64,000 nucleotides of DNA from Natronoglomus mannanivorans (lineage in GTDB: Archaea > Halobacteriota > Halobacteria > Halobacteriales > Natrialbaceae): the NCBI GenBank assembly GCA_025517485.1, contig JAOPKB010000004.1:248001-312000 (forward strand). The letters run 5' to 3'. Shown here piece after piece: positions 56,519-59,508 of this stretch. The notes under the pieces were generated by a model. It did not search any database, was not told the origin of the DNA, and saw nothing but the letters and a program-made list of their open reading frames with translations. The position numbers and the translations under genes were made by a program. The number at the start of each line of letters is the position of its first letter. The stretch's first letter is position 1.

Positions 56519-57117
56519 GCGTCGGAGTCAGATCGGAATCAGAGTCAGCGTCGGAGTCGGTGTCAGCGTCGAACCCGGTACTCGACCGAACGGCGGACAG
56601 TTCGTTTTCGACCTCGACGCGCCGATCTCGACCTCCGAACCCGCGCTCAACTGTGATCTCGAGTCTCCTCTCGAGATCATTTCGACCCCGATTTCGACCG
56701 TCACACTTCCCTTTCCGTCGAAAACGCGATCACGGGCAGTCACCGTAGGCAATTTCTAGGCGTCTCGTATGCGGTCCCTGTCTGCGTTCTCGAGTGGCTA
56801 CTGTCAACGAAGTAGATGCATAACAAAGGGTGAGACTCGCCTTCCGTTGACACGCGGGGATGAAACGCCCCGTCGGGTGAACGCTCGGCGCAGACCACGA
56901 CGCGCTGACCGGCCATTTGCCGTGCGTTCGTTCCCGGATCGCTCAGAAGTGGACTCGCCCCCGCTTCGAGTTAGCTCATGTCTCTCACACACGGGCGGGT
57001 CCCGCCCCCGCCCGGTTTCACACGCCCGAGTGACGACTTCCCCTGTCGGTATCGGTATCGGTGTCACCGTTCCGTCGTCCTCGGTCCCACCCTATTTATC
57101 AGCGGTACAGGAGAATA
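56519..57117. other. Gene-poor region upstream of the TnpB element
   Basis: About 600 bases. No convincing gene: a 74-aa minus-strand frame (56528-56752) would have to start at TTG, has poor codon use and ends in a Thr-Pro repeat. Simple repeats TCGGTATCGG occur near 57046-57060. The left edge of the insertion element is probably within the last tens of bases here, near the TTTAT at 57094-57098, but this is not certain. Confidence 0.5.
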
Positions 57118-57193
57118 CCCCGAGGTCGTTCGAGAGACGTATGTCTCTCGTGATGACGAGAATCCCCGATTCTCGAACCACTTGACCTCGGGG
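57118..57193 (+). repeat. Left palindromic module: double hairpin within a 10-bp stem
   Basis: A perfect 10-bp outer stem (57118-57127 with 57184-57193) encloses two perfect hairpins: stem 57131-57138/57143-57150 (CGAGAGAC) with loop GTAT, and stem 57157-57164/57168-57175 (CGAGAATC). GTT at 57128-57130 also pairs with AAC at 57176-57178. The linker between hairpins is TGATGA. Shares GTCGTTCGAGAGA and the TGATnA linker with the module at 58461-58522. Confidence 0.92.
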
Positions 57194-57258
57194 ATGAATC
57201 CGATAGGCAGCTCTGATACAAATCATTAAGTAGACAAATTCCCAACACGTAGACAGCG

Positions 57259-58611
57259 ATGGAGCACAGCCACCGTTACCACGCTTACCCGAGCGACGAG
57301 GTAGCGGCGGCTGCCGAACATCACATCAACGTTCATCGCCAACTCTACAACCACGTCCGATGGGACTACACGAACAGTCCCGAAGACGACAAGCCGAGCG
57401 AATACCAGCAGAATAACAAACTTCCCGAGTGGAAGCGTCGATGGTCGGTGTTTTCAGAACTTCATTCGAAAGCCGCACAAGCTACCGTCGCACGCTTCCA
57501 CCGCAACCTCTCCAACCTTCGCAAGAAAAAAGAAAAGGGGCACAACGTCGGGTGGCTCAAGCGCCAATCCCCAACCGAGTATCGAAGCGTCACGTACAAC
57601 CAGTCAGGCTTCGACCTCGATAACAAAAGGGGCCGAGACGGATACGCCTACGTGCGCTTCAGCAAAATCGGCTGGGTGAAAATCCGCTACCACCGCCCAC
57701 TCCCCGACCACGCCACCATCAAAGAAGTCACGCTCAAAAAGGAGCGGACTGGCGAGTGGTTCGTCTCGTTCAGTCTCGAAACCGACGACGAACACGTTCC
57801 CGAGAAGCCCGCGTTGGACACGCTTGACGCGAGCAACAGTGTGGGAATCGACCTTGGTATCCTGAACTACATCCACACCAGCGACGGGAAGACCGTGGAT
57901 TGGCTCGACCTCGAAGACGAATCCGAGCGATTGCGCCGCGAGCAACGAAAACTCTCGCGGAAAGAACACAGGTCGAACAACTACGAGAAACAGCGCCGGA
58001 AAGTCGCCAAAGTGAAGCGAAAGATTCGACGCAAAGTACTGGACTACCAGCATAAGTTGACGACGTGGCTCGTCAAGACCTATGACGCTGTGTTTGTTGA
58101 AGACCTCGACGTAGCTGGAATGCTTCAGGCGGATGGGAACGCTCGGAACAAGCAGGATGCAGCGTGGGGACAGTTCATCACTCTGCTCGAATACAAGGGT
58201 GATTTGTACGGCACTCACGTTGTACAAGTCGAACCTCGTGGAACGACGAAGGAGTGTGCGTCGTGTGGAGTGGAGACAGCGAAGCCCATCTGGGTTCGTG
58301 AACACTCGTGTCCAGCGTGTGGGTTCGAGACGGATAGGGATGCGAACGCGGTCGTCAGACGTAGTCTGACGGGCAGCAAAATCGCGTGCGATTTTGCGAC
58401 GGCGATGAACGTGTTGCAGAGAGGATTTTCTGAATTAGGGCTGGGATGGCCCGAATCAACGTCGTTCGAGAGAGCTCTGCTCTCTCGTGATCACGAAAGG
58501 CGCGGAGCGCCTTTCGAACGACCCGTGGAGACTGTGACCGCTACGGACACCGCTGGTTTCCAGCGAGTGTCTGCAAGTCACGTCGTAGAAACGGGAAGCC
58601 CCGCCCCTTGA
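57259..58611 (+). CDS. tnpB: RNA-guided nuclease TnpB with two in-frame palindromic insertions
   Basis: 450 residues. RuvC motifs: Asp198 in VGIDLG, Glu281 in VFVEDLD and Asp361 in TDRDANA; zinc finger Cys333, Cys336, Cys351 and Cys354. Residues 365-381 (17 aa) and 402-421 (20 aa) are encoded by the palindromic modules and interrupt otherwise standard blocks: DRDANA...AMNVLQRG and EST...PVETVTATDT. The stop codon lies in the loop of the right-end hairpin. TnpB uses an omega RNA from the element's right end to cut target DNA; whether this copy is active is open, because the first insertion starts four codons after the Asp361 codon. Confidence 0.9.
   Translation: MEHSHRYHAYPSDEVAAAAEHHINVHRQLYNHVRWDYTNSPEDDKPSEYQQNNKLPEWKRRWSVFSELHSKAAQATVARFHRNLSNLRKKKEKGHNVGWLKRQSPTEYRSVTYNQSGFDLDNKRGRDGYAYVRFSKIGWVKIRYHRPLPDHATIKEVTLKKERTGEWFVSFSLETDDEHVPEKPALDTLDASNSVGIDLGILNYIHTSDGKTVDWLDLEDESERLRREQRKLSRKEHRSNNYEKQRRKVAKVKRKIRRKVLDYQHKLTTWLVKTYDAVFVEDLDVAGMLQADGNARNKQDAAWGQFITLLEYKGDLYGTHVVQVEPRGTTKECASCGVETAKPIWVREHSCPACGFETDRDANAVVRRSLTGSKIACDFATAMNVLQRGFSELGLGWPESTSFERALLSRDHERRGAPFERPVETVTATDTAGFQRVSASHVVETGSPAP
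58351..58401 (+). repeat. Palindromic module inside tnpB, 51-bp in-frame insert
   Basis: Two hairpins: CGTCAGAC (58353-58360 with 58364-58371, loop GTA) and GCAAAATCGC (58376-58385 with 58388-58397). It adds exactly 17 codons (V365-T381); removing it restores DRDANA-AMNVLQRG, the usual TnpB RuvC-III continuation. GC content is lower than the surroundings (AAAATCG). Confidence 0.85.
58461..58522 (+). repeat. Palindromic module inside tnpB, 60-bp in-frame insert
   Basis: A perfect three-way junction: outer stem GTCGTT (58461-58466) with AACGAC (58517-58522), hairpin 1 CGAGAGAGC (58467-58475 with 58479-58487, loop TCT), linker TGATCA, hairpin 2 CGAAAGGCGC (58494-58503 with 58507-58516, loop GGA). 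It adds 20 codons (S402-R421). Its left part matches the module at 57118-57193. Confidence 0.92.
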
Positions 58612-58619
58612 GGGCGGGG
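58599..58619 (+). terminator. Right-end hairpin of the element / shared 3' hairpin
   Basis: CCCCGCCC at 58599-58606 pairs with GGGCGGGG at 58612-58619, loop CTTGA; the loop contains the tnpB TGA. This hairpin ends four bases before the R2-like gene's stop codon and may act for both genes. It is the usual IS200/IS605 right-end structure and probably the 3' part of the omega RNA scaffold. Confidence 0.8.
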
Positions 58620-58623
58620 TGAT

Positions 58624-59508
58624 TCACTTCGATTCGAGACTGACGAGTTCGTCGACGCTCGGAAACGCCGTCGAGTCGTCGAGAATCTGGTCCATCCGCT
58701 CGGCGTGTTTTCGTGTCGCGTACGCGGTGAGTTTCGCCCCGACGGACCCGCTGTCGTCGACGGTCGCCTCGCTCACGACACCCGTCGCGAGGTCGGCGAG
58801 TTCCGCGACCGTCTCCTCGATCAGTTCGGGATCGACGCCGCGGCCGTGGACGAGGGTCTTCAGTTTCCACATCCCGAATCCCACGTGGCGGCCTTCGTCC
58901 TCCCGAATCCGTGAAAACCCTTCCACGAGCCCCGGCATCGACGGGGCGGCCTCGCGAGTGAACTCCGCCTGGACGCTGTAATAACCCGTCTGTGCGAGGA
59001 TCCCCTCGATCGTCAGGTGGTAGTGGCAGTACGCCTTGGCCCGGTTCTCGAGCGTATCTTCTGTGAGCAATCGATGCATCGCTCGCTCGTTGCGCTCGAG
59101 GAGTTCCACGTACGCGGCCGGAAACCACCGCTCGTCGGTCGGACTCGTGGGCTCGAGCCCGCGTCGGCGTTCCTCCGGCGTGATCACGGTGTCCCAGTAG
59201 CGCTCGAAGTAATCGGCGTGTTTGGCCTCGTCGTAGAGTTGGGTGCTGACGTAGAGCTGATCGGTGACGTTCTCGAGGACCGAGGCGAGAGGGACGAGGT
59301 CCTCGGTGACGGCCTCCTCGCCGGCACCGAAGAGTGCGAGCGTCCGTCGGAGACCCTCGAACTCGGGGTCGGGGAGGGCAGCGATGGCCTCCCGGTCGGT
59401 CGAGAGGTCGATCTCGTGGGGGTCCCAGTGGCGTTCGACCGCGTTCCGATAGTAGCGATAGGAGCGACGCTCGAGGTCGAGTCGGGGGTTCGGCGCTCGT
59501 GTCGTCAT
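58624..59508 (-). CDS. Ribonucleotide reductase R2-like di-iron protein
   Basis: 294 residues from ATG 59508. Carboxylate and His ligands of the ferritin-like R2 fold are visible: GEEAVTEDLVPL, YDEAKHADYFERYW (ExxH), HLTIEGILAQTGYY and REDEGRHVGFGMWK (ExxH). No radical Tyr is obvious at the usual position near the first ligand, and the length (294) is closer to R2-like ligand-binding oxidases than to class I R2 (about 350). No R1 (NrdA) gene is nearby. A minus-strand TATA-like TTTTTTACAG lies at about 59531-59540. Role open. Confidence 0.8.
   Translation of the reverse strand: MTTRAPNPRLDLERRSYRYYRNAVERHWDPHEIDLSTDREAIAALPDPEFEGLRRTLALFGAGEEAVTEDLVPLASVLENVTDQLYVSTQLYDEAKHADYFERYWDTVITPEERRRGLEPTSPTDERWFPAAYVELLERNERAMHRLLTEDTLENRAKAYCHYHLTIEGILAQTGYYSVQAEFTREAAPSMPGLVEGFSRIREDEGRHVGFGMWKLKTLVHGRGVDPELIEETVAELADLATGVVSEATVDDSGSVGAKLTAYATRKHAERMDQILDDSTAFPSVDELVSLESK

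Follow-up and report, generated by a model that had tools for sequence, protein, structure and literature searches.

In the mitochondria of fungi and algae, double-hairpin elements carry two hairpins per unit and show apparent mobility. The SMR-A elements of Haloquadratum walsbyi (HqIRS42, 43 and 55) are ~110 bp long, carry prominent terminal inverted repeats, commonly share >95% identity within a type and enter the near-terminal palindromes of IS605 elements without duplications, mostly outside the open reading frame (ORF), by a mobilisation that has been called enigmatic (PMC3119063). The PATEs of haloarchaea, palindromic, as short as 52 bp and tied to IS605 elements, are terminal remnants thereof (PMC3119063). 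Some REPs lie inside genes, where they encode 20–30 residues, and some are inserted in other palindromes, in a survey that makes no mention of haloarchaea (PMC3733652), and Rickettsia palindromic elements (RPEs) are palindromic inserts of ~150 bp that preserve the host reading frame in unrelated metabolic genes (PMC10969869). Here we analysed a 64,000-nucleotide stretch of the haloarchaeon Natronoglomus mannanivorans (contig JAOPKB010000004.1, positions 248,001 to 312,000; the window), in which an IS200/IS605-type element with the gene tnpB holds three double-hairpin modules, designated as M1, M2 and M3. It is likely that these modules are non-autonomous mobile palindromes distributed throughout the haloarchaea, a judgement that covers their nature as mobile palindromes and not the Y1 transposase step considered below.

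The host gene (nt 57259–58611, plus strand) is an ORF coding for a 450-residue IS200/IS605 OrfB protein (Pfam OrfB_IS605, 5.5e-24; Cas12f1-like_TNB, 8.3e-20) with two in-frame inserts; insert-free relatives have ~410–416 residues. Both the OrfB and TNB zinc-finger domains and the presence of terminal palindromes match IS200/IS605 TnpB. A sequence-only reading of the locus had placed three double hairpins here, and this was borne out by folding and by a window-wide scan. When M1, M2 and M3 were folded as single strands of DNA, short flanks included, the z values were -5.58, -4.37 and -5.57, each module beating all of its 200 dinucleotide shuffles, and adjacent perfect hairpin pairs with arms of at least 7 bp amounted in the window to M1–M3 plus one chance-like pair, against 0–1 per shuffle in 20 shuffles. 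M1 and M3 belong to one type (type I) and have in common GTCGTTCGAGAGA, the TGATGA/TGATCA linker and mutually compensating stems, all as previously described. The outer stem proposed for both is likewise present, but that of M1 (CCCCGAGG/CCTCGGGG) turned out to be the left terminal palindrome of the transposon (nt 57118–57193), in whose loop the 55-bp module proper (nt 57126–57180; TCGTT-hairpin-TGATGA-hairpin-AACCA) sits between G and C, flanked by CCCCGAGG and CTTGACCTCGGGG. The three-way junction suggested for M3 (nt 58462–58521, 60 bp) is the optimum with DNA parameters, but as RNA the module, nearly complementary to itself over its full length, can also form a single long hairpin. M2 (nt 58352–58402, or 58351–58401 after a one-base slide) is 51 bp long and was assigned to type A.

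M2 and M3 interrupt tnpB in frame at DANA/AMN (site 1) and EST/PVET (site 2), the slash marking here and below the point of insertion. As expected from the sequence-only reading, omission of the 51 and 60 bp keeps the frame and yields DRDANA-AMN and EST-PVET, as in relatives. Indeed, alignment with 80 tnpB relatives from other haloarchaeal genomes revealed that both segments are absent, with the flanks joined exactly, in more than 70 of them, the empty sites being AACGCGGCGATG for M2 (in most relatives) and CAACGCCCGTGG for M3. Insertion is equally precise at the left end, where relatives (L027, L030 and others) have empty forms such as CCCCGAGGCTTGACCTCGGGG and the window has CCCCGAGG and CTTGACCTCGGGG separated by 55 bp.

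Among the relatives, one site can hold different modules and one module can occupy different sites. The insert of M2 is also found at site 1 in L019, L021, L028, L262 and L270, and in L030 as a 48-bp version with the second stem changed on both sides, from AAAATCGC/GCGATTTT to AAACGC/GCGTTT. Site 2 contains a different double hairpin, of type IV/V, in L027, L271, L276, L282, L290 and others, and a type I module in Haloquadratum (L210, L211). A third tnpB site, after VTV, is occupied in L030, L042 and L072. The right terminal hairpin (nt 58599–58619, plus strand; CCCCGCCC-CTTGA-GGGCGGGG) is empty in the window, and its matching loop harbours a type I module in L019, L027, L040, L053, L055, L074 and L086. 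More distant TnpBs, at ~50% identity, again have modules at sites 1 and 2, with differing stems. Gain is scattered over a tree of 93 TnpBs, in which the ten right-end carriers need ten changes, equal to random labels, and the six site 1 carriers need five.

The modules are dispersed well beyond this gene. A type I covariance model built on 13 copies matched 36 of 41 genomes (the window's own and 40 relatives) and a type IV/V model matched 37; in the window's genome, type I matches fell at ~14 distinct places with E down to 1e-22, and a Haloquadratum walsbyi genome was matched as well. In a sample across the phylum, the type I model retrieved all 15 haloarchaeal genomes and none of the 85 others, plasmid copies of type I were found in haloarchaea only (~40 of 43 records lying outside annotated genes, with two records unannotated), and phage records gave no match. 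The covariance-model search proposed with the sequence-only reading has therefore returned many copies outside tnpB, restricted to haloarchaea, and together with the empty sites it supports the idea, also put forward there, of small RPE-like mobile palindromes that enter reading frames; neither relatives all filled at the same sites nor modules confined to tnpB were observed. The view that the fold rather than the sequence is conserved holds too: stems covary strongly (35 doubly changed cells for type I versus a shuffled mean of 11.4, with slid controls collapsing; 33 versus 9.9 for type IV/V), with linkers and feet fixed. One might invoke palindromes arisen by chance, or the debris of pseudogenes, in tnpB genes of high GC content, since high-GC genomes do hold some chance double hairpins (8 versus 3 after shuffling in 795 kb of ordinary genome). 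The tnpB loci, instead, gave 42 versus 0 in 467 kb, and the E values, the lack of matches in the 85 control genomes, the exact empty sites and the retention of the frame make this explanation, refuted by the controls, hardly credible.

Module length is divisible by three in 23 of 23 modules within open tnpB frames (a count that takes in open-frame modules only) versus 47 of 90 elsewhere. Modules in tnpB and tnpA appear to be kept mainly with an open frame because the host transposon needs its protein. Frame loss at the end of the gene is expected if only the protein body is constrained, and the double hairpins of type III, which have GGC as a 3-nt linker, do lie at the last tnpB codons in L205, L211, L023, L096 and L011 without keeping the frame (46 bp in L023). 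In tnpA, a type I module of 18 residues is placed in frame directly before the HUH motif in L336–L338, L340 and L341; its linker reads GGATCA in L337 and L338, while L336, L340 and L341 have the frame-closing TGA (TGATCA). A further type (GCGGAATC..GATTCCGC-TGACCTC-GCGGAAC..GTTCCGC) adds 17 residues in frame, sometimes with a stop, between WCPK and YR of the Y1 transposase in the haloarchaeal IS605 tnpA genes L341–L349. At the loci examined, no in-frame copy was found in genes of the host, Pfam domains being present in the spanning frames of 2 of 20 proteins and the insertion falling inside the domain in neither. Frame retention also led us to reject archaeal introns spliced from the tnpB RNA. 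The inserts are short, have a basal stem and lie inside an RNA-coding region, as introns might, but open tnpB frames run through them and their lengths are multiples of three, neither of which splicing would require; many copies, moreover, lie outside annotated genes, and by inspection no bulge-helix-bulge was seen at the ends, so that splicing is an extremely improbable origin.

Several observations weigh against mobile palindromes. In G033, module copies ride on similar flanks within tnpB-free terminal palindromes, that is, they travel with host elements, and copy numbers therefore overstate independent insertions; co-transposition with the host element could account for part of the shared occupancy, and recombination between tnpB copies could be the source of part of its scatter. 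Restricting the count above to open-frame modules biases it towards multiples of three, and in L008, a truncated remnant of tnpB, the module is one base short of the length of M3. Near-identical strains yielded no presence/absence pair, and on plasmids no strain-level empty site was clean; recent movement is consequently not directly demonstrated. As regards a simple Y1 version of the movement, Y1 genes were detected in 30 of the 41 genomes, the module carriers G023, G028, G029 and G040 have no detectable Y1 gene, and the number of copies is only moderately correlated with that of Y1 genes (rho 0.39).

The position of M3 also bears on the presumed omega RNA. The consensus fold of empty relatives places its scaffold from the 3' part of tnpB to the right-end hairpin (nt 58437–58619, plus strand), with M3 as an extra arm. 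An Rfam scan of the window element matched no family, including the sotRNA families RF02656 and RF02657 at the tnpB 3' end, hence we infer the omega RNA itself. M3 is probably a tolerated arm of this predicted RNA, because 42 of 43 predicted core pairs are retained in its presence. The suggestion that the modules are extra omega-RNA arms is at best secondary: it could apply to M3, which lies within the presumed region and leaves the predicted core nearly intact, but not to M1, located in the left end, nor to copies of the same type in tnpA and outside IS605. A stronger version would regard the modules as functional arms of the omega RNA or of the end palindromes, serving ribonucleoprotein stability, transposase recognition or guide-RNA processing, with gain and loss as tuning and spread by tnpB recombination. 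It draws on the location of sites 2, 3 and III in the conserved 3' scaffold-folding part, beside junctions or internal loops, on the undisturbed core fold around M3 and on the L200 module in an omega-RNA hairpin loop of another TnpB group. Such a function is made improbable by the copies found in left ends, tnpA, palindromes free of tnpB and other repeats, by the absence of modules from most close relatives and by an occupancy that is not tree-like; an additional omega-RNA arm would at most be a consequence, as for M3. In the window's genome, a further TnpB group (L014, 1336–1508) matched Rfam sotRNA RF02656 (sot0042) with 87.7 bits, the gathering score being 88.

Insertion targets are short and recurrent. 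After a fitting slide, type I, which starts with (G)TCGTT, lies between G and C without target duplication, as in GGGG/CTTG at the right end, AACG/CCCG at site 2 and GTGTGG/CACA in the L200 omega-RNA loop. Type IV/V follows CG in 36 of 37 contexts, with CGTCC preceding the first hairpin in nearly all 37, and since it also ends in CG a 2-bp target duplication is possible for this type. Type IV/V modules occur head-to-tail, two of them in frame within the tnpB of L273 (1826–1939) and three in a row in G034 (C49:7616-7787), apparently because each copy regenerates an AACG target. Universal targeting of hairpin loops was considered and discarded, as 10 of 42 type I sites (24%) fall in loops closed by stems of 7 bp or more and the rest do not; loop insertion is nonetheless enriched over control GC sites (3%, same stem threshold), and all ten loop sites are IS605 end palindromes of one kind. 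Outside known IS605 ends, the type I copies of L157, L159 and L181 have the flanks TTTTGCGCTG and TCGGCAAAA, for which the G/C rule predicts the empty form TTTTGCGCTG/CG. This form (TTTTGCGCTG/CG...CGGCAAAA) is indeed present in 11 of the 41 genomes, a reversed control pattern giving 0, and G012, G020 and G021 each contain empty and filled paralogous copies of the predicted target.

From these features we propose that the modules form a superfamily of ~45–62 bp palindromes, each made of two near-perfect hairpins (arms of mostly 7–10 bp, loops usually of 3 nt) with a fixed 3–7 nt linker between them and fixed short feet on either side. They preferentially enter IS200/IS605-type elements, at the terminal-palindrome loops, at 3' spots of tnpB and in tnpA, using short targets (G/C without duplication for type I, after CG for type IV/V), and might be mobilised, in the form of folded DNA single strands, by an enzyme acting in trans. 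Two hairpins, the lack of duplication in type I and the tie to IS605 make the single-stranded Y1 pathway a first guess, and an IS200/IS605-type Y1 transposase would be the weak favourite among the possible enzymes, although we regard even this as rather doubtful. Selection on the fold, or correction templated by the hairpins, may underlie the variation of stems under constant complementarity. The main rival to Y1 movement, concerning the moving step only, is a transposase-free spread by DNA-level copying, through hairpin-primed template switching or through gene conversion from one palindrome to another at replication forks. Such copying is consistent with the near-perfect arms of stems that change rapidly, with the constancy of feet and linker, with the tandems of L273 and G034, with type I insertion without target duplication and with copies in genomes lacking Y1 genes, but exact ends and the recurrence of a G/C or CG target among unrelated flanks look more enzyme-like, and we judge copying unlikely. 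A broader proposal, which we hold tentatively and see as almost evenly poised, is that the double hairpins constitute a so far undescribed, haloarchaea-wide superfamily of mobile elements, with at least six types distinguished by feet and linker, recognised by their fold and not by the stem sequence, with a mobilising activity of its own and parasitic on RNA-guided transposons, whose tnpA, tnpB, omega-RNA region and both ends would be entered without disabling the host.

The modules would work like REP doublets, RPEs and SMR-A but, as far as tested, do not seem to be members of these families. Similarly to SMR-A, they target near-terminal palindromes of IS605 elements or PATEs without target duplication, but they are set apart by description as double hairpins of 45–62 bp with freely varying stems that frequently lie in frame within tnpB and tnpA. 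No 110-bp repeat family emerged from 400 kb of the Haloquadratum genome J07HQW1. PATEs differ in sequence from the modules, for which such terminal palindromes serve as insertion sites. REP dimers with GTAG or CGTC tags also have two hairpins (CGTC stems of 8–9 bp; PMC3733652) and short feet, which the CGTCC that type IV/V reads after CG may resemble, but the modules have linkers of 3–7 nt, loops of ~3 nt and stems that vary wholesale within one genome. RPEs are likewise palindromic inserts preserving the host frame (PMC10969869), whereas in-frame copies of the modules were found only in tnpA and tnpB. By description only, the modules also resemble the mitochondrial double-hairpin elements, which are presumably unrelated. 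The open-access papers searched, which do not settle priority, describe no in-frame double hairpins in haloarchaeal tnpA or tnpB. Palindromic inserts that keep the frame have been known mostly from Rickettsia and from the REPs of bacteria, and the present ones provide an archaeal, class-wide case that offers many empty/filled pairs of natural origin as well as strong covariation, in RNA-guided nuclease genes that are open to testing. They serve as experiments of nature on where TnpB, TnpA and omega RNA tolerate 16–20 additional residues or one more RNA arm, and they make the movement of Haloquadratum-type small repeats directly testable.

Structure prediction of the 450-residue TnpB from 26 relatives was of low confidence (mean predicted local distance difference test score 55.8, below 50 across both inserts), and the closest solved structures to the window TnpB are TnpB-type nucleases. 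No tnpA lies beside the window tnpB (nt 57080–58640), the Y1 genes of that genome being on other contigs. In L028 and L038, near position 1877, another left-end palindrome, CCCCGACC/CACCGTGG, has in its loop a module of a further type, CCGAAAACC..GGTTTTCGG-CTTT-CGCAAATC..GATTTGCG. The target palindrome TTTTGCGCTGCG-hairpin-CTCGGCAAAA (35–45 bp; L381–L394, G012, G020, G021) is a separate dispersed element, present in 11 of the 41 haloarchaeal genomes, that receives type I. Composites of ~100 bp with outer TTTTGC/GCAAAA arms also occur, and their own empty form exists.
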